A stretch of DNA of 17,107 bases, taken from Bacteroidaceae bacterium (lineage in GTDB: Bacteria > Bacteroidota > Bacteroidia > Bacteroidales > Bacteroidaceae). Location of the stretch: assembly GCA_900752815.1 (NCBI GenBank), contig CAADWS010000016.1, positions 1 to 17,107 of the forward strand, written 5' to 3'. The notes beneath the pieces are model-generated. The model did no database searches. It was not told where the DNA came from and saw only the letters and a program-made list of their open reading frames with translations. A program made the position numbers and the translations under genes. Numbering within the stretch: the first letter of the stretch is position 1; each line of letters starts with the position of its first letter. This document shows positions 9,133 to 17,107 of this stretch, one piece after another.

Positions 9133-12066
9133 ATGGCGAAAGAAGAGCAGATCAAAACATCAATCGACCTTACAGGCGAAAAAGAGTATCGCGCCGCTTG
9201 CACTAACATAAATTCTTCCCTTCGCGAAATCGGATCGGAAATGAAGCTGACGACGGCGGAATTCGCCGACAACGCAGACAGCGTGGAAGCGCTGACCGCG
9301 AAACAGAAGCTATTACAAAAGCAGTTCGACGAACAGGCGAAGAAAGCAGAAGCGGCGGAAAAGGCATTGAAGAAAATGCGCGATAACGGTATCGAACCGA
9401 CAAATCCCGCATATCAGAAAATGCAAACAAATCTGAACAACACCAAAGCCGACATGGTGAAAATTCAAAAGGAAATCGACGACACTTCTAAAAAGCTGAA
9501 AAGCTCAAAGGTGGATTGGGAGAGCGTCGGCGAAACCGTCGGCAAAGCAGGAAAGGCGATCGGCGCGGCTTGCGCGGCTATGGGTGCGGCGATTGCGGCG
9601 GCGGGTGCGGCATTCTTCGGGCTTGCCGAAGAAACACGCGAAGCCCGCGAAAACATGGGTAAACTTGAAACCAGCTTCACGACGGCGGGACATTCGGCAG
9701 AGGACGCGAAAAACACCTATACGGAGTTGTACGGCGTTCTTGGCGACGACGGACAGGCAACAGAAGCCGCCGCCCACCTTGCGAAGCTGACTACGAACGA
9801 AAAAGAGCTTTCGGACTGGACAAACATTTGCACGGGTGTTTACGCGACATTCGGCGACAGCTTGCCGATTGAAGGCTTGACCGAAGCCGCGAACGAAACG
9901 GCAAAGACGGGATCAATCACGGGCAATCTTGCCGACGCGCTGAATTGGGCGGGCGTTTCCGAAGATGATTTTCAAGCCAGCCTTGACGCTTGCACATCGG
10001 AGCAGGAGCGGCAAGCCCTTATCACGTCCACGTTGAACGGGCTTTATTCAGAAGCGGCGGACAAGTACAGAGAGGTAAACGGCGACATTATCGACGCGCA
10101 GAAGGCAACAGCAAATCTGAACAGCGCTATGGCGGCGCTGGGCGCGATTGCTGAACCGATCATTACAAAGCTGAAACAGCTTGCGGCGGAGCTTTTGCAG
10201 GAAATAACGCCGTTCGTCGAGCTTATCGGAAAAGGCTTGACGGGTGCGCTTTCCGGTGCAGAGAGCGCGGCGGAGGACTTCACAGACGGCTTGCTGGGTA
10301 TGGTTACGTTCGCGATCGAAAAGCTAACGGAAATGTTACCGACCTTCCTTGAATTCGCGGTGAAGATGATCGCGAATATCGCTACGGGCATAGCTCAATC
10401 GTTGCCGACGCTTGTTCCTTCGCTGGTTCAGCTTGTAACGGACATCGTGCAAGTTCTGATCGACAATATCCCGTTGCTGATCGACGCGGCTTTACAGCTT
10501 GTAACAGGGCTGGCGGAAGGCATTATAAACGCAATCCCCGTTCTTGTTGCGGCGCTTCCGCAGTTGATAACCAGCTTGATCGACGGTTTGCTTTCCGCAA
10601 TCCCGCAGATCATTCAAGCGGGTATCGACCTTCTGACGGCGTTAATTACCGCCCTTCCGGAGATCATCACAACGATTGTTGAAGCGATCCCGCAGATCAT
10701 TGAAGGCATTATAACGGCGCTTACGGAGAACATACCGCTTATCATTCAAGCGGGCATTGATCTTCTTGTCGCGCTCATACAGGCTTTGCCGCAGATTATA
10801 ACGACGATCGTTCAAGCGATCCCGCAAATCATAAGCGGCATTGTAAACGCGCTGATCGGCAACATCGACCAAATCATTATGGCGGGCGTTCAGCTTTTCG
10901 TGGCGCTCATTCAGAATTTGCCGACGATCATAGTTGAAATCGTGAAGGCAGTTCCGCAGATTGTTTCCGGCATTGTGCAAGCGTTCGCGTCGCTGGGCGG
11001 CGAAATGATAAACGCGGGCGCAAACCTTCTTCACGGCTTGTGGGAAGGTATCAGCGGGGCGGCTTCGTGGTTGTGGGAAAAGGTATCCGGCTGGGCTTCG
11101 TCCCTTGTTTCGGGTATTAAGGACTTCTTCGGCATTCATTCCCCGTCAACGGTATTCGCTGAAATCGGCGGCAACATGGCGGACGGCGTGGGCGTAGGCT
11201 TCACCGACAACATGGGCGGCGTTGAAGGCGATATGACCGCCGCAATGGGCGGAGCGGGCGCGCTGACGGCGGCGGAAGCAGTAAACGCCGTGAACAACGG
11301 CATTATTGCGAACGTTGAAGGCTTGTCCGGAGCGGTGAACGCGATCGTCGAGCGGGTTATTACCGGACTGACGGCGCAAGCTCAACGTTTCAATCAAGCC
11401 GGACAGGACTTCGACAAGAACATAGCTTCCGGCATGGTGGCGGGTATCGTGCAGATCACGCAGAAAGTACCGCAGATCGCGCAAAGCATTATTACCGCAT
11501 TCACGGCACAACATCAAAAGTTCGTAACCGAAGGAACGAACATCGACAAGAGCATAGCGCAAGGAATGATCGCGGGTATCCCGCAGATCACGGGCAAGGT
11601 TGCACAAATTATTCAGCCCGTTATTACCGCGCTTCGCTCTTACGTATCGGAGTTCACGGCGGCGGGCGAAGAGATGGTGCGCGGCATTTGGCAGGGCTTT
11701 CAAAATATGTCCGGCTGGCTTGAAAGCCGTGTCCGCTCTATGATGAGGGATATTGTGGCGGCGGTTGAAGAGGAAATGGACATCAATTCCCCGTCGAAGG
11801 TTTTTGCCCGTATCGGTTCGTACATGGCGCAGGGCTTGGGCGAAGGCTTCGCCCGCGAAATGCGCGACGTTGAAAGTTCGATCCGGCGCGAAACGTCGAA
11901 CGCCGTTCCGGAATTTCGTTCCGGAGAGGGACGCGACACGCGCGGCGGCGGTACGCCTTCCGTTGAAGTCGTGCAAAACATCTATGCGAACGAAACGAGC
12001 TACGCCGAACAGCAAAGACAGGCGGCGCGGCAGTTCCGGCAGATTGCGCGGGAGGTTATGGCATGA
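9133..12066 (+). CDS. Tape measure protein
   Basis: A 977-residue protein, the largest in the window, sets tail length (roughly 1.5 angstrom per residue in the family, so a tail of about 145 nm is expected). Residues 1-135 are coiled coil; about 140-165 form an Ala/Gly-rich hydrophobic segment. About residues 400-620 contain five hydrophobic 44-residue repeats (LPxxI / IPQII). Two copies of an SPS-V/K-VFA-IG-MA-G motif (INSPSKVFARIG near residue 890, and HSPSTVFAEIG near 670) flank a second set of repeats, QxFxxxGxxIDKxIAxGMxAGI, about residues 750-840. The last 50 residues are charged. ATG 9133 follows GGAGGGAT directly. The stop overlaps the next start as ATGA. No lytic domain was recognised. 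Confidence 0.95.
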   Translation: MAKEEQIKTSIDLTGEKEYRAACTNINSSLREIGSEMKLTTAEFADNADSVEALTAKQKLLQKQFDEQAKKAEAAEKALKKMRDNGIEPTNPAYQKMQTNLNNTKADMVKIQKEIDDTSKKLKSSKVDWESVGETVGKAGKAIGAACAAMGAAIAAAGAAFFGLAEETREARENMGKLETSFTTAGHSAEDAKNTYTELYGVLGDDGQATEAAAHLAKLTTNEKELSDWTNICTGVYATFGDSLPIEGLTEAANETAKTGSITGNLADALNWAGVSEDDFQASLDACTSEQERQALITSTLNGLYSEAADKYREVNGDIIDAQKATANLNSAMAALGAIAEPIITKLKQLAAELLQEITPFVELIGKGLTGALSGAESAAEDFTDGLLGMVTFAIEKLTEMLPTFLEFAVKMIANIATGIAQSLPTLVPSLVQLVTDIVQVLIDNIPLLIDAALQLVTGLAEGIINAIPVLVAALPQLITSLIDGLLSAIPQIIQAGIDLLTALITALPEIITTIVEAIPQIIEGIITALTENIPLIIQAGIDLLVALIQALPQIITTIVQAIPQIISGIVNALIGNIDQIIMAGVQLFVALIQNLPTIIVEIVKAVPQIVSGIVQAFASLGGEMINAGANLLHGLWEGISGAASWLWEKVSGWASSLVSGIKDFFGIHSPSTVFAEIGGNMADGVGVGFTDNMGGVEGDMTAAMGGAGALTAAEAVNAVNNGIIANVEGLSGAVNAIVERVITGLTAQAQRFNQAGQDFDKNIASGMVAGIVQITQKVPQIAQSIITAFTAQHQKFVTEGTNIDKSIAQGMIAGIPQITGKVAQIIQPVITALRSYVSEFTAAGEEMVRGIWQGFQNMSGWLESRVRSMMRDIVAAVEEEMDINSPSKVFARIGSYMAQGLGEGFAREMRDVESSIRRETSNAVPEFRSGEGRDTRGGGTPSVEVVQNIYANETSYAEQQRQAARQFRQIAREVMA
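10336..10995 (+). repeat. Five tandem 132-bp repeats in the tape measure gene
   Basis: Repeat units begin at 10336, 10468, 10600, 10732 and 10864, exactly 132 bp (44 codons) apart. Each starts with an Ile/Leu-Pro pair (except IDQ in the last), followed by a hydrophobic helix of the type IIQAGIDLLxALIxALPxII. The units at 10600 and 10732 are the most similar in DNA (for example ATCATTCAAGCGGG in both). Divergence at wobble positions shows the duplication is not recent. Confidence 0.8.
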
Positions 12067-12950
12067 GGACACAAGAAAAATTAATCTACACGAACGAGCG
12101 CGGGGAAAGCATAGAGTTTTCCCCCGCTTCTTCGTATCACGTAAACTTCAAGGACGTTACCGGACTTTCCGACGTGCGGAACGCTATTTACAGCACCAAC
12201 AGCATGGGGCAGGACGGCGACACATACTTGGGCTATCGGATCGAAAGCCGCGATATTGACATCGTGGGATACATCAAGGAGCGGGACAAGCAAGCGGCGC
12301 AGAACCTACGCCGGAAGCTGAACCGCATATTAAATCCGCAGTACGAAGCAACGTTGACGTATGTTTTCGGCGACTTCCGGCGGGTGATCGGGTGCAAAAT
12401 CGACGACGCGCCGATCTTCAAGCGAAAGCCGATCTTCGAGCAATTCACGGTTAGCTTGTCTTGCCTTAATCCGTTTTGGAGAGAGGAAACGGAAACACGC
12501 GAGGACATAGCAACGTGGATCGGCGGCTTTGAATTCCCCGTTCCGGACGGGCTGGAGCTTTACGACGGCTGGGAAATCGGCTATCGCCAGCCGTCGCTGA
12601 TTGTGAACGTCTACAATTCCGGAGACGTGAAAAGCGGTATCCGGATCGAGTTCCGCGCGATCGGCGCGGTTACAAATCCCGTATTGCTGAACGTCGATAC
12701 ACGGGAGTTTATCAAGCTGAATATTTCGCTTGTAGCGGGCGACGTTTTAACCGTTTCCACGGGCTACGGTGAAAAAGCCGTGAAGCTGAACCGTGGCGGC
12801 ACGATTACAGACGCGTTCCGCTATCTCGACGTTGATAGTTCGTATTTGCAGATCGCCGTGGGCGACAATCTCTTCCGTTATTCAGCGGACGCGAACGCCG
12901 AAAATCTCGAAGTTTCGATCTATCACAATAACTTGTATTTGGGGGTGTAG
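12063..12950 (+). CDS. Distal tail protein (Dit)
   Basis: A 295-residue protein immediately after the tape measure, the usual place of Dit, the hexameric hub of the siphovirus tail tip. The N-terminal ring domain is recognisable: FKDVTGLSDVRNAIYSTNSMGQDGD, then the DIDIVGYIKERD and LRRKLNRILNP segments typical of phage tail family proteins, and a CLNPFWREE motif (about residues 133-141) ending the first domain. The rest, about 150 residues, is a beta-rich galectin-like C-terminal domain. It starts at ATG 12063, overlapping the previous stop in ATGA, which implies coupled translation. Confidence 0.87.
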   Translation: MRTQEKLIYTNERGESIEFSPASSYHVNFKDVTGLSDVRNAIYSTNSMGQDGDTYLGYRIESRDIDIVGYIKERDKQAAQNLRRKLNRILNPQYEATLTYVFGDFRRVIGCKIDDAPIFKRKPIFEQFTVSLSCLNPFWREETETREDIATWIGGFEFPVPDGLELYDGWEIGYRQPSLIVNVYNSGDVKSGIRIEFRAIGAVTNPVLLNVDTREFIKLNISLVAGDVLTVSTGYGEKAVKLNRGGTITDAFRYLDVDSSYLQIAVGDNLFRYSADANAENLEVSIYHNNLYLGV

Positions 12951-12954
12951 CGCG

Positions 12955-14076
12955 GTGGAATTATACGTTTATAGCCGCGATATGACACTTCAAGGGATCG
13001 TCGAAAAGATTTCGTCCTTGATATGGACGCGGCGTTATTGGAGTTGCGGCGAATTCAAGTTGCTTGTTCCCTTCACGGAGGAACACGCCCGCTTGCTGGT
13101 GAAGGAAAATATCATCATCAAGCGCGGCGGCAACGAAGCGGCGGAAATCCGCTATATTCACATCACGAAGAATTCACAGGGCATGGAGGAAATAGAGGTT
13201 CAAGGCAAGTTCCTTCTTTCATGGATCGGCAAGCGCATTTTGACAACGCAGATCATCACGAAGGACACAACACAGAACATTCTATACGCCATTGTGAAGC
13301 AGACTTGCACGAACGCAGGAGCGGCGCGCAATATCCCGAATTTCAGCATATCCACGACCGACGCAGACACCGGAAGCGGGCAGATCGACTATACTTCGGA
13401 GCAGTACGCGAACGCCCAGCTTGCGGCGGAAACGGCGGCGAAGGCGGCAAAGCTGGGTATTCGGGTTCTGACAAATGCCCGCACGGGCAAGCATACCTTT
13501 TCCGTTTACGAAGGGCGCGATCTTACGGCGGGCAATACCGCAGGGAACGCGCCTTGTATCTTTTCGCAGGAGTTCGACAACATCGTTGAACAGGAATACA
13601 CGAACAGCGTTGAAAACCTTAAAACAACGGCTTACGTCGGCGGAGAGGAAAAAGAAGGCGTAACGCGGAAGGTTGCCGAAGTCGGCGGCAGTTCGACGGG
13701 GCTTTCCCGCGACGAAGTTTTCATCAATGCAACGGACATCGTGCAGGAATACGAAAACGAGAGCGGGCAGACCGTAACGCTTACAACGGCGCAGTATTTA
13801 GCGCTTCTTTCCGCGCGCGGCGTTGAAGAGCTGGAGCAATACGCGGAAACGCTTGCTTTCGGATCGAAGATCAACACGAACGCGAATTTGAAGTACGGCA
13901 CGGACTACGATTTAGGCGATCGGGTAACGTGTATCAATAAGCGCTGGAACGTCCGCATTGACGTTCGCATAACGGAGATCGCGGAAACCTACGAAACCAG
14001 CGGCGAAGAAATAGATATTACCTTCGGCGAGAGCTTGCCCGCGCTTCTGACACAAATTCGGCAGATTACGAAATAA
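12955..14076 (+). CDS. Gp37-like tail-tip protein (Sipho_Gp37 family)
   Basis: A 373-residue protein with the layout of siphovirus ReqiPepy6 Gp37-like proteins: an N-terminal ELYVYSRDMTLQGIVEKISSLIWTRRYWSCGEFKL segment, a GGNEAAEIRYIHITKN strand pair, and a C-terminal YDLGDRVTCINKRWNVRIDVRITEIAETYE domain. It forms the baseplate cone under Dit, as Tal/gp27-like proteins do. The start is GTG 12955, only 4 nt after the previous stop, with GGGGGTG (12941-12947) as RBS. The frame stays open far upstream inside dit but those codons are a shadow of dit. No peptidase motif was recognised. Confidence 0.85.
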   Translation: MELYVYSRDMTLQGIVEKISSLIWTRRYWSCGEFKLLVPFTEEHARLLVKENIIIKRGGNEAAEIRYIHITKNSQGMEEIEVQGKFLLSWIGKRILTTQIITKDTTQNILYAIVKQTCTNAGAARNIPNFSISTTDADTGSGQIDYTSEQYANAQLAAETAAKAAKLGIRVLTNARTGKHTFSVYEGRDLTAGNTAGNAPCIFSQEFDNIVEQEYTNSVENLKTTAYVGGEEKEGVTRKVAEVGGSSTGLSRDEVFINATDIVQEYENESGQTVTLTTAQYLALLSARGVEELEQYAETLAFGSKINTNANLKYGTDYDLGDRVTCINKRWNVRIDVRITEIAETYETSGEEIDITFGESLPALLTQIRQITK

Positions 14077-14092: not shown

Positions 14093-14983
14093 ATGGAAAA
14101 ATCAAGTTTCTTCAATAGCGTTTCGCACGATCGCACGTACAAGGCGGAGGATTGGGCGGAATACTTTGCTTCGTTCATCGGGAACGGCGTTTTCCCCGTC
14201 CCTTCGACGGGGCTTCAAGTCGTCGCAAACGACGGAATGAAGCTGAACGTTAAAACGGGCAAAGCGTGGATCAACGGTTACTTCTACTTCAACACGGGCG
14301 ATCTTGCCGTCGAGCTTGACACGGCGGACGGACAGTTGAACCGCATTGATCGCGTTGTCGTGCGCTGGGATTTGACAAACCGCGTTATGTCGGTGAAGGT
14401 CAAATCTTCTTCGTTCAGCGCGTCCCCTACCGCGCCCGCATTGCAGAGGGACGCGGACGTTTACGAGCTTGCGCTGGCGGACATCTACGTGGGCGCGGGC
14501 GTAACAGCAATCACGCAAAGCAAGATCACGGATCAACGCTTGAACACGTCGCTTTGCGGCGTTGTTGCCGCCGTCGTTCAGCAGATCGACACGGCGGCTT
14601 TTAACGCACAGCTTCAAGCGTGGTTCGCTGAATATCAATCCCTTTCGGCGGCGGAGTACAACACGCTTGTTTCGTATATGAATTCGCTGAAATTGCAGGG
14701 TAACACGCAGTACGAAGCGTTCGAGCAACACATGGCGGATTTTGAAACACAGGCGGCGGCGGACTTCAACGCATGGTTTAACGGCTTGCAAAACGTCCTT
14801 GACGATAACGCGGCAACAAATCTTCTGAATATCACGAATGCGCTTGACGCGCGCGTGGATATGCTGGAAGCGGTGCTTTTCAATGACATTACGACAAATC
14901 CGTTCTTGATCCTCTTCGATGATCTCGACGGCGTAACGTCTACGGGCATTTGGAACGAGAGTTTGCAGAGGATCGAATGTTGA
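14093..14983 (+). CDS. BppU-like upper baseplate protein
   Basis: A 296-residue protein. The N-terminal 100 residues include GLQVVANDGMKLNVKTGKAWINGYFY, the repeated short-strand module of siphovirus baseplate/structural proteins (gp16-like/BppU N-terminal type), then DRVVVRWDLTNRVMSVKV and ELALADIYVGAGVTAITQSKITDQRL. The remainder is helical and probably coiled coil (residues 180-265), giving a stalk. Such proteins connect the tail tip to receptor-binding proteins. AAAGGAGG at 14076-14083 precedes ATG 14093. It is the last conserved structural gene before the DGR, and its short non-specific C-terminus suggests that the receptor-binding head lies in another protein. Confidence 0.72.
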   Translation: MEKSSFFNSVSHDRTYKAEDWAEYFASFIGNGVFPVPSTGLQVVANDGMKLNVKTGKAWINGYFYFNTGDLAVELDTADGQLNRIDRVVVRWDLTNRVMSVKVKSSSFSASPTAPALQRDADVYELALADIYVGAGVTAITQSKITDQRLNTSLCGVVAAVVQQIDTAAFNAQLQAWFAEYQSLSAAEYNTLVSYMNSLKLQGNTQYEAFEQHMADFETQAAADFNAWFNGLQNVLDDNAATNLLNITNALDARVDMLEAVLFNDITTNPFLILFDDLDGVTSTGIWNESLQRIEC

Positions 14984-15363
14984 CGCGGTACGCTTGCACG
15001 GCGGCGGAATTGTCGTGCGTGATCGGAAACATCTTCGCGGAGCTTTCCCCGCCATGCGCGGCTTGCGGCGCGGAGGCATTACAGATCACAGGAACAACGG
15101 TTACAGGGAACGCGGCAACGCTGACCGTTACCGAAGCGGGCTTCGATTTCGACGGGTGCGCCGACGATACCGCTATGATCGAGCGAATGCGGAAAGGACG
15201 GTGCATATATGCAAAGACCGGAGCGGGAGCGGAAAGAACCGACGGAATTCAACGTGATTGTGAAAGCGAAAGACCTTGTAAAGCACACCTTCACGATCAC
15301 GAATTCGACAGAGCGCTACCCGAAGAAATACCGCTTCACGCTTGTAAACAGGATACAGGATAA
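14977..15363 (+). CDS. Hypothetical protein overlapping avd
   Basis: I do not recognise this 128-residue protein. ATG 14977 overlaps the end of the previous gene by 7 nt and has AGAGGA a few bases upstream. The first 75 residues look like a real protein: a helix (TRYACTAAELSCVIGNIFAEL), a CxxC (PPCAACGA, about residues 29-32), then Val/Thr strands ending near FDFDGC. The last 50 residues lie in a second frame under the start of avd (155-nt overlap) and have His/Cys/Arg-rich composition untypical of the neighbours, so the true product may have been longer or shorter before the DGR arrived. A small baseplate or tail-tip accessory is the best guess by context. Confidence 0.45.
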   Translation: MLTRYACTAAELSCVIGNIFAELSPPCAACGAEALQITGTTVTGNAATLTVTEAGFDFDGCADDTAMIERMRKGRCIYAKTGAGAERTDGIQRDCESERPCKAHLHDHEFDRALPEEIPLHACKQDTG

Positions 15364-15613
15364 AGCGGTGGACATTTACGAATGCGTCCTTGAAGCGAAC
15401 GAATTAGACCTTCGGGACGCGCAGGAATACAGACAACGGCAGAAGCTACAAGCAAAGGCGCTGACCTATTGCAAGGAGCTTCTATTTTTCATAGAGCTTT
15501 CGCAGGAAATGGGCTTTATTTCTATGAGCAGTTGCGAATATTGGTCAAAACTTGCGCTTGAAGTGAAGTACATGACGACCGCGTGGAAGAAGCGGGACAA
15601 AACGAGAGCTTGA
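15209..15613 (+). CDS. avd: DGR accessory variability determinant (Avd-like)
   Basis: A 134-residue basic protein predicted as a four-helix bundle like Avd and the related S23/IVP fold. Helix 1 is about residues 14-32; helix 2 (about 38-65) carries the family-like RYPKKYRFTLVNRIQ signature; helix 3 is about 70-101; helix 4 is about 106-128. Avd forms a barrel-shaped pentamer that binds the DGR reverse transcriptase and template RNA and is required for retrohoming. ATG 15209 is preceded by GGAAAGGA at 15190-15197, and its 155-nt overlap with the upstream open frame is unusual. Its stop (15611-15613) stands at the left edge of the template repeat. Recognition rests on fold, pattern and the TR and RT next to it. 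Confidence 0.85.
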   Translation: MQRPERERKEPTEFNVIVKAKDLVKHTFTITNSTERYPKKYRFTLVNRIQDKAVDIYECVLEANELDLRDAQEYRQRQKLQAKALTYCKELLFFIELSQEMGFISMSSCEYWSKLALEVKYMTTAWKKRDKTRA

Positions 15614-15616
15614 AAA

Positions 15617-15754
15617 ACGTTCGGGGTACATCTTGATACGCCTAATTCGTCGAACGCCAACAACGTCCGCAACGTCAATTCGGACGGCTCTTTGAACAAC
15701 AACAACGCGTACAACGGCAACAGGGGCGTTCGCCCGCTTCGGTGGACTATGTGA
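15617..15754 (+). repeat. DGR template repeat (TR)
   Basis: A non-genic stretch between avd and the RT that nevertheless reads as protein. From 15632 the frame gives LDTPNSSNANN, then VRNVNSDGSLNNNN, then AYNGNRGVRPLRWTM and TGA at 15752-15754. Twelve of about 40 codons are Asn, mostly AAC, with an AAC run at 15695-15706. AAC-rich sequence is the hallmark of TRs, because adenine mutagenesis of AAC can give many residues but no stop. The GVRPL-type ending and the Asn/Ser/Tyr pattern match the variable end of phage C-type-lectin-like DGR targets. The exact ends need the VR, which is outside the window. The left edge is set at the first bases after the avd stop. Confidence 0.85.
15722..15736 (+). 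other. GC-rich hairpin at the TR 3' end, IMH*-like
   Basis: GGGC (15724-15727) and GCCC (15732-15735) form a small stem around GTTC inside a G/C block near the 3' end of the TR. DGRs have a G/C-rich initiation-of-mutagenic-homing sequence in the VR, with a near-copy (IMH*) at the TR end. Placement and base content fit, but proof needs the VR for comparison. Confidence 0.35.
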
Positions 15755-15909
15755 ACGAGTAGGCACAGCCGAAAGCAGAATACCACCATCAAAGGAAGGT
15801 GTATCCCGTCGCCGCTATCCACGGCGGGGACGAATACAGGATCGCCGATACCGGAGCATACCGCCTTCAGGCGGCTGGCAAAGGTTATAAACAGCGAGGA
15901 TTTTTTATT
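15755..15909 (+). ncRNA. Structured DGR RNA segment between TR and RT
   Basis: These 155 nt separate the TR stop from the RT start. They contain GCCG (15811-15814) / CGGC (15822-15825) with outer CGTC/GACG pairing, and a strong CCGCC-TTCA-GGCGG tetraloop hairpin (15861-15874). In the studied Bordetella DGR, RNA downstream of the TR folds and primes cDNA synthesis with RT and Avd. The same role is inferred here. A GTG-started reading frame (15799) crosses the segment in frame with the RT but has a poor case as a start. Confidence 0.55.
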
Positions 15910-16965
15910 ATGACAGACTTTGAAAAGATACACAGTTTTGAAAGCCTATACAATGCCTACCGAAAGGCGCGGCAAGGCAAGAGGTGGAAAGGAGCGGCGG
16001 CAAAGTTTGAAGTTAATCTTCTTGAAGCGCTGAACCTATTAAGCGCGCAGATCAGAACGAAGCGCTATACCATGTCCCCGTATAACACGTTCGAGGTATA
16101 CGAACCGAAGCGCCGCGTGGTTATGTCGAACAGCTACAAAGACAAGGTTGTTCAACATTCGCTTTGCGATAACGTGCTTGAACCGATTTTGACACGATCG
16201 TTCATTCGCGATAACTACGCGTCGCAGGTGGGGAAAGGTACGCATTACGGGTTAGACAGGCTTCAAGAGTTCATGCGGAGGTTTTACAGGAAGAACGGAA
16301 TTGACGGCTGGATACTGAAAGGCGATATTTCAAAGTATTTCTATTCGATCCGGCACGACGTTTTGAAAACCTTAATCCGCGAGAAGATAACCGATCCGGA
16401 CGTTTTGTGGCTGATTGATCTTATCATCGACAGCACCGAAGGCAACGTCGGAATACCGATCGGCAATCAAACTTCACAGCTTTTCGCCCTTCTCTACCTT
16501 GACGGGCTGGATCACTTCGTAAAGGAAAAGCTGGGTATCAAATATTACGGGCGCTATATGGACGACTTCTTTTTGATCCATCACGACAAAGCACATTTGC
16601 AGGAGTGCCGGAAGCAGATTGAAGCGTTCGTACAGGCGCGCGGGCTTTCGCTGAATGCGAAAACAAATATCTTTCCCTTAAAACACGGCGTTGATTTCTT
16701 GGGCTTTCATACATACTTGACCGAAAGCGGCGCGGTGATCCGCAAGGTGCGCCGCAGGAGCAAGAACAATATGAAGCGGAAGTTGAAGAAATTAGCCGCC
16801 CTTCACGCGGCGGGACGGATCGACGCAAAGACCGTTGAACAATCCTATCAAAGCTGGAGAGGACATGCCGAAAAGGGAAACAGTTATCACTTGATCCGGC
16901 GGACGGATCATTATTACAACAGCTTAATGAAAGCAAAGGAGGCGGCGCAATGTCAAAAACATTAG
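15910..16965 (+). CDS. DGR reverse transcriptase
   Basis: A 351-residue reverse transcriptase that copies TR RNA into mutagenised cDNA. Motif A is LKGDISKYFYSI with catalytic Asp 139; motif C is YMDD at 216-219; the DGR hallmark IGNQTSQ (184-190) has SQ where group II intron and retroviral enzymes have SP, a change linked to loose fidelity at adenines. NAKTNIFPLKHGVDFLGF follows (motifs D/E), then a Lys/Arg-rich C-terminal thumb. No maturase, endonuclease or retron domain is present. ATG 15910 has GAGGA (15896-15900) as RBS; the alternative GTG 15799 would add 37 residues from the RNA segment. It overlaps the next gene by 16 nt. Confidence 0.93.
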   Translation: MTDFEKIHSFESLYNAYRKARQGKRWKGAAAKFEVNLLEALNLLSAQIRTKRYTMSPYNTFEVYEPKRRVVMSNSYKDKVVQHSLCDNVLEPILTRSFIRDNYASQVGKGTHYGLDRLQEFMRRFYRKNGIDGWILKGDISKYFYSIRHDVLKTLIREKITDPDVLWLIDLIIDSTEGNVGIPIGNQTSQLFALLYLDGLDHFVKEKLGIKYYGRYMDDFFLIHHDKAHLQECRKQIEAFVQARGLSLNAKTNIFPLKHGVDFLGFHTYLTESGAVIRKVRRRSKNNMKRKLKKLAALHAAGRIDAKTVEQSYQSWRGHAEKGNSYHLIRRTDHYYNSLMKAKEAAQCQKH

Positions 16966-17107
16966 GCAGTTTGACGGTGGGCGCGAAGATTGAAGTTCCG
17001 GTTCTTTCGGCGTATCAATCGCGCTTCGGATCGAAGATCGTTTTCAAGATCGCCGACAAGAACCACAGCGGCTACCCGTCGAATTCCGTAACGCTGATTA
17101 CGGAAAA
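16950..17107 (+). CDS. DGR target protein, DUF6273-like N-terminus (partial)
   Basis: The first 52 codons of a gene cut by the window edge. AAAGGAGG at 16935-16942 and ATG 16950 are clear, and it overlaps the RT by 16 nt. The sequence runs from LGSLTVGAKIEVPVL to ADKNHSGYPSNSVTLITEK, resembling the start of phage DUF6273-like proteins, whose C-terminal C-type-lectin-like fold often ends in a variable Asn/Ser/Tyr-rich stretch followed by GVRP. The TR codes for exactly such an ending, so this gene is the probable diversified receptor-binding protein. The VR itself is not in the window, so this stays an inference. Confidence 0.75.
   Translation, partial: MSKTLGSLTVGAKIEVPVLSAYQSRFGSKIVFKIADKNHSGYPSNSVTLITE

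Follow-up and report, generated by a model that had tools for sequence, protein, structure and literature searches.

A stretch of 17,107 nucleotides (positions 1-17,107 of contig CAADWS010000016.1 in assembly GCA_900752815.1, here termed the window) ends in a diversity-generating retroelement (DGR), and the question that it raises is which proteins this element diversifies. The window comprises the packaging, head and tail genes of a siphophage, followed by avd, a template repeat (TR), a reverse transcriptase (RT) gene and a target gene of which 52 initial codons are included. It is probably the structural and DGR half of a siphophage resembling phage nd12 and infecting Oscillibacter-like gut bacteria. 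The DGR itself is not new, being a further copy of the kind published with nd12 in 2023; the interest of the locus lies in a second target, common to its two nearest relatives and a hint that diversification in such phages may extend to a protein working inside the host cell. The explanation that we regard as likely combines a DGR core, a first target of the tentaclin type and a second target that probably acts within the cell.

The DGR core and its tail-side target

As a preliminary description of the sequence had proposed, avd, TR and RT follow directly on tail genes and are succeeded by the start of a target gene, here termed target 1 (Table 1). The Avd-like open reading frame (ORF; 134 residues, isoelectric point 9.2) also matches NCBIfam DivGenRetAVD (E 5.8e-11) and Pfam bAvd (E 2.7e-6), both under the curated cut-offs, and the RT translation carries YMDD together with IGNQTSQ, which we take to be a mark of DGR RTs. 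The TR is non-genic, lying between the avd stop codon and the RT start codon, and its core, contained in the span 15617-15754 delimited earlier, has 28 A in 102 nt. In the DGR of phage BPP-1, avd, a TR, an RT and a C-type lectin (C-lec) target occur together and the target shows adenine-specific mismatches to the TR. The window DGR has the same avd, TR and RT parts, its target is a putative C-lec protein, and the mismatch pattern recurs in its relatives; it is almost certainly of the same kind.

Beyond the end of the window, target 1 can be followed in the nearest relatives, G001:C11 (27,481 bases, 99% identical to the queried stretch) and nd12 (OR777946.1, our record L005; 98.8% identical to window positions 14800-17107), each of which carries a target 1 gene of 579 residues. 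Both contain a near-copy of the TR, the variable repeat (VR) VR1. That of G001:C11 is identical to the window TR at 89 of 102 positions and all 13 mismatches fall on TR adenines, which would be expected by chance with a probability of about 5e-8. The VR1 of nd12 differs from the window TR at 14 adenines and two other positions, the latter being sites at which the nd12 TR itself departs from that of the window; against its own TR it presents 14 mismatches at A and none elsewhere (94 nt). VR1 starts 1.97-2.13 kb past the TR in all 14 records compared below. Hence, the complete core claimed previously is confirmed in the window, and the near-copy with adenine-confined mismatches that had been predicted within several kb is present in the relatives, while the accompanying idea of a receptor-binding protein varied for host switching is conjecture. 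VR1 can be expected with great confidence in the window's own phage.

The 52-codon piece of target 1 in the window has no Pfam match. The complete proteins of nd12 and G001 match DUF6273 (PF19789; E 1.6e-36 and 3.9e-35, respectively, residues 45-264) over the cut-off and, under the cut-offs, the immunoglobulin (Ig)-like families Big_13 (402-475) and Big_9, thereby showing the tentaclin order of an N-terminal C-lec domain followed by Ig-like ones. In nd12, whose target 1 protein is a founding tentaclin member (PMC10743442), the VR occupies residues 226-257 of 579 and the protein matches phrog_10993, 'Hoc-like head decoration' (E 8.1e-204). Target 1 is most likely a virion adhesin encoded beside the tail genes, and its lectin and Ig-like composition may serve adhesion other than receptor switching.

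A second variable repeat in the relatives

The same scan revealed an unexpected further near-copy of the TR (VR2) in nd12 and G001:C11. Compared with the respective TR, VR2 of nd12 (31951-32021) has 13 mismatches at A and none elsewhere, and that of G001 (1390-1461) six at A and one elsewhere. The latter is located 18.6 kb upstream of the TR, in a gene (725-1618) that ends 2.77 kb before the base matching, by offset, the first base of the window. Fourteen records with TR, VR1 and VR2 were compared: nd12, G001, G006 (the contig of L015 and L101), G004 (the genome of L174, Oscillibacter sp. ER4), G003:C32 (from the genome of L173, O. valericigenes An907), G026 (two copies that do not differ in the compared stretches), nd4, Lelie, Toutatis, Brigit, L114, L115 and L118. 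Their TR stretches contain 24-35% A, and the mismatches at TR adenines and elsewhere number 189 versus 6 for VR1 and 136 versus 4 for VR2 (136 of 140 on A), or 184 versus 5 and 125 versus 4 when G026 is counted once; since the records were chosen for having a second VR, these figures describe the appearance of VR2 and not its frequency.

The variation is also apparent at the protein level, as the 11 codons overlapping TR adenines in eight second-target proteins of equal length average 4.4 residues per column, against 1.25 for the 272 columns outside the VR. In DGR terms, a VR carries at its 3' flank an initiation of mutagenic homing (IMH) sequence and the TR an altered version of it, IMH*. Judged by eye, the relatives show this distinction, with a 3' flank shared by VR1 and VR2 and absent from the TR in nd12, G001, nd4, Lelie, L114, L115 and L118. 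The second targets of nd12, nd4, Lelie, L114, L175, L016 and Brigit, and also of G026, have phrog_9958 as their best match. It is very likely that VR2, too, is present in the window's own phage.

Among individual VR2 copies, that in gp06 of FP_Brigit (L192:4373-4449) has seven mismatches at A and one elsewhere, and that in gp24 of FP_Toutatis (L191:11937-12030) has 13 and none. The TRs also differ among themselves, since positions 15722-15724 of the window read AGG and the corresponding positions of the nd12, G001 and MT837771 TRs read AAT. Both VRs of G001 (VR1 in L008, VR2 in L007) read AGG in spite of the AAT in their own TR (L008), which suggests either that they originated from a window-like TR or that the contig mixes strains.

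Composition, surroundings and putative role of the second target

The second target of nd12 joins DUF3310 (residues 8-67, E 2.5e-16) to DUF6273 (E 5.7e-10). DUF3310 is likewise found on the second targets of G001, L009, L010 and L173 (by Pfam in nd12, G001 and L173), whereas those of L014, L175 and P0242 carry Lar (PF14354), over the gathering score in all three cases (E 3.4e-7, 2.5e-7 and 4.1e-8), the Lar part of L175 matching phrog_599 as well. The C-lec part alone constitutes a 212-residue protein in some relatives (P0117, P0119-P0121), and in G026 the Lar-like protein is a separate gene (63 residues, PF14354 E 1.1e-8, phrog_599), the stop of which overlaps the start of the second target. 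Maximum KD19 hydropathy lies between 0.58 and 1.57 in ten second-target proteins. The DUF3310 domain is that of lactococcal SaV, which is reported to be toxic, to be transcribed early and to interact with AbiV, an abortive infection protein (PMC11373665, PMC8306868), and Lar is described as modulating host restriction, protecting the Rac prophage (PMC11318856). The SaV-type domain fused to some second targets, and the Lar part that others carry or overlap, argue for work inside the cell.

A large set of second targets of 289-290 residues (P0030-P0039 and others) presents a strongly diverged N-terminus and a nearly unchanged C-lec part, in some cases with no DUF3310 entry, which would fit decay of the DUF3310 part or a change in its role.

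The gene order of the relatives places the second target away from the structural module and near DNA-modification, replication, repair or regulatory genes. In nd12-like phages it follows a pyrophosphatase gene (phrog_3301 E 7.8e-40; Pfam MazG under the cut-off), the overlap in G001 being 7 bases if a GTG start is used and none from the ATG 9 bases further on. A Dam-type methylase gene is located upstream, with Dam and N6/N4 methylases among the neighbours, and replication initiation (phrog_3584), DNA methylase, resolvase-like and HNH (L015) and terminase genes are found downstream. G026 presents the order pyrophosphatase (phrog_3301), D12 DNA methylase, Lar-like protein and second target, with successive overlaps of 7, 4 and 4 bases. 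In nd4 the second target is followed by the gene for a DNA polymerase exonuclease subunit, and Holliday resolvase (L114, L118) and helicase (L114, L115) genes lie downstream in L114, L115 and L118. In G003:C32 the second target precedes a replication initiation gene and an OGG-type glycosylase gene lies 2 kb upstream; in Brigit it stands between upstream regulators and downstream exonuclease, RecT and replisome organiser genes; and in Toutatis replication initiation is 2.6 kb downstream and two methylase genes are 3.6-5 kb upstream. No methylase gene was found adjacent to the second target in nd4, L114, L115, L118, G003 or Brigit, and no head or tail gene was found among its assignable neighbours, the L114 case discussed below excepted.

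In Toutatis and Lelie the second target comes right after a phrog_24518 gene. Genes of this family near a second target include L191:10836-11486, L171:39364-40005 and L009:974-1648; their presence in both Toutatis-like and nd12-like phages suggests that the two may travel together.

Taken as a whole, the element would function as follows. Avd and RT would reverse-transcribe the TR RNA, making errors at its adenines, and the mutated cDNA would replace the matching stretch in the target genes, according to the copy-and-replace mechanism carried over from BPP-1; the retrohoming activity of this particular DGR is predicted from its sequence. Target 1 would be a lectin/Ig-like tentaclin adhesin on the virion, and the second target, a putative C-lec protein encoded between the MazG-like gene and the replication and DNA-methylase genes, would be made early and work in the cell rather than on the virion. 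That the second target is a non-virion protein seems fairly probable. Its assignment to counter-defence or host takeover is tentative, but such an intracellular role appears more likely than the receptor binding proposed in print. With slightly greater reserve, it can be postulated that one TR randomises both a virion adhesin and an early cytoplasmic lectin-fold protein with an exchangeable N-terminal module (DUF3310, Lar or none), which would sample binders of host defence or takeover proteins. Were the second target intracellular, the hypermutation by DGRs in phages would concern more than attachment, since one error-prone copying process would also generate new specificities towards host proteins inside the cell; the Quimbyvirus work provides one published hint in this direction (PMC8008677). 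Lelie has been induced from a cultured host and carries the two-target layout, which makes the proposal directly testable.

The most serious alternative assigns both targets to the virion as receptor-binding or adhesive proteins, the second acting like the Mtd of BPP-1 even though it is encoded far from the tail genes. This corresponds to the view of the Tentaclins paper, which proposes receptor binding for the second target (PMC10743442), and we consider it possible but doubtful. Several observations count in its favour or weaken the case for an intracellular protein. The fold of the C-lec part is similar to that of extracellular lectins, second targets also match the Hoc-like phrog_10993 over the VR region, target 1 in turn matches phrog_9958 (E 3.2e-18), and a 479-residue relative (P0015), putatively an assembly chimera, joins the second target to an Ig-like domain. 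In L114 the second target is immediately preceded by a transglycosylase-like gene, which also has matches among families named 'lytic tail protein' and 'internal virion protein'; this neighbour counts against a purely non-structural setting in that phage and, together with the lectin fold, makes a virion location conceivable. The KD19 value of 1.57, that of the G003 protein, is borderline for a membrane stretch; Lar fusion is rare (PF14354 in 2 of 120 listed relatives of the L014 protein); and the structure models of the Lar and DUF3310 parts are of low confidence. Several neighbours lack an assignment (the upstream gene in nd4, both in Lelie), gene position is an indirect pointer to function, early expression is deduced from gene content, and all statements on the targets rest on relatives, both VRs lying outside the window. 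Against a virion role for both targets, DNA-metabolism or regulatory genes surround the second target in most backgrounds examined, the fusions and overlaps described above link it to Lar and DUF3310, and Pfam detects no Ig domain in the second targets scanned. The second target also lacks the beta-prism and beta-sandwich attachment domains of Mtd, according to the Tentaclins paper (PMC10743442).

Classic single-target tropism switching as in BPP-1, with only the tail-side target mattering, would account for the position of VR1 some 2 kb past the TR in 14 of 14 records and for the statement of the Tentaclins paper that single-target phages always keep the tentaclin (PMC10743442); it is nevertheless improbable, because both G001 and nd12 carry an adenine-diverged VR2, the codons of which vary among close homologues. 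Even less probable is that the DGR has decayed and ceased to diversify any target: the non-adenine discrepancy between the G001 TR and both of its own VRs (AAT versus AGG) would suit this view, but avd and the RT gene have open frames in the window, and VR1 and VR2 differ from the TRs almost solely at adenines, and differently in each close relative. Finally, the chance that the RT belongs to a group II intron, a retron or a defence-associated RT (DRT) system and lies beside a coincidental repeat is practically negligible. Matches to NCBIfam group_II_RT_mat (E 4.2e-34) and Drt3a (E 3.9e-20), both far under the cut-offs, speak for it; against it stand the best PDB match, 8ub7_A, presumably the BPP-1 DGR complex (E 2.5e-43, versus 5.2e-17 for a group II RT), the Avd neighbour, the DGR-type motif and the adenine-specific TR/VR pairs, the last of which already contradict it.

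Phage background and related systems

The features discussed are collected in Table 1. The ORF of the Sipho_Gp37-like protein is open from 12793 and its start was set by offset from the nd12 coding sequence 15141-16262; that of the RT is open from GTG 15799, the likely start being the ATG annotated in nd12 (coding sequence 18096-19151).

Table 1. Positions of the tail, DGR and target features in the window and, for VR1, in its nearest relatives.
Feature	Position	Strand or location	Evidence
Tail tape-measure protein	9133..12066	+	nd12 counterpart L005:11319-14252 matches phrog_58, E 2.2e-90
Distal tail protein (Dit)	12063..12950	+	Sipho_tail E 8.5e-16, SPP1_Dit E 1.5e-11
Sipho_Gp37-like tail protein	12955..14076	+	PF14594 E 1.5e-78; nd12 counterpart matches minor tail phrog_538, E 1.1e-91
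Virion structural protein upstream of DGR	14093..14983	+	phrog_1220 (head protein) E 1.7e-94
Avd accessory protein	15209..15613	+	phrog_3206 'Avd protein of DGR' E 6.1e-29
TR core	15638..15739	+	VR1 and VR2 of relatives are near-copies, differing almost only at TR adenines
DGR reverse transcriptase	15910..16965	+	phrog_1423 'Reverse transcriptase' E 4.9e-135; Pfam RVT_1 E 1.4e-15
Target 1 (tentaclin), 5' end	16950..17107	+	52 codons from ATG 16950; VR beyond window
VR1	L005:19815-19908 (nd12); L008:3027-3123 (G001)	downstream of TR	near-copies of TR

The tail proteins of the window are of the siphophage type, as judged by their Sipho_tail, SPP1_Dit and Sipho_Gp37 matches. Both nd4 and nd12 are said to contain a tail sheath gene (PMC10743442). 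We found no match to the phrog_23 sheath family in nd12, whereas nd4 and Lelie do match it; nd12, with Dit, Gp37-type and phrog_88 tail proteins, is siphophage-like. In the GenBank record of nd12 (L005), 17163-17549 is annotated in another frame and 17554-17799 is an in-frame but truncated avd; the complete ORF spans 17395-17799.

The target of BPP-1 is Mtd, whereas target 1 is here a DUF6273/Ig-like protein accompanied, in the relatives, by a remote second target. The closest published system is nd12, which has the same avd-TR-RT-tentaclin order as the window and differs from it in the AAT of its TR; like G001, it carries the second target. Together with nd4, it has been published as a two-target DGR, including the DUF3310 of its second target (PMC10743442). 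The Quimbyvirus DGR resembles the relatives analysed here in having one target near tail genes and one, non-structural, distal target near methyltransferase and nuclease genes, in a defence-related island read as conflict-related; it differs in belonging to a Bacteroides phage and in an RT spread over three frames, and the passages describing it mention no Lar or DUF3310 fusion (PMC8008677). Second VRs served by one DGR have also been reported for the Faecalibacterium phages Lelie, CP11 and Lagaffe_CP. In Lelie and CP11 the second target is a small DUF6273 protein, as here, the function of which is left open in the sections concerned, whereas Lagaffe_CP, unlike the relatives of the window, has two Mtd-like targets; the same paper cites Roseburia phage Shimadzu, with a tail protein and an unknown protein as targets (PMC11792537). 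For FP_Brigit (NC_047909.1) and FP_Toutatis one target each is named in the published passages describing them, that of Brigit being Hoc-like, as target 1 is here (PMC5883640). More generally, viral DGR targets have been classed mostly as structural (Roux et al., PMC8144416). Among the main texts of open-licence PMC papers, we found none linking the second target to Lar or reading it as intracellular.

Some related loci depart from the arrangement described above. The O. valericigenes An907 genome also holds an nd12-like second-target gene (L173:3199-4092) on G003:C33, a contig with neither an RT nor a TR match, and no TerL relative was found in that genome by a search without positive control; the contig is perhaps a remnant prophage that kept the second-target gene. 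L123, L124, L130 and L161 display another dual-target layout, in which the two VRs precede the TR by about 0.5 and 1.1 kb. In G005, the genome behind L175, eight matches to the window TR (TRs and VRs together) are distributed over several contigs, and several DGR prophages seem to share this one genome.

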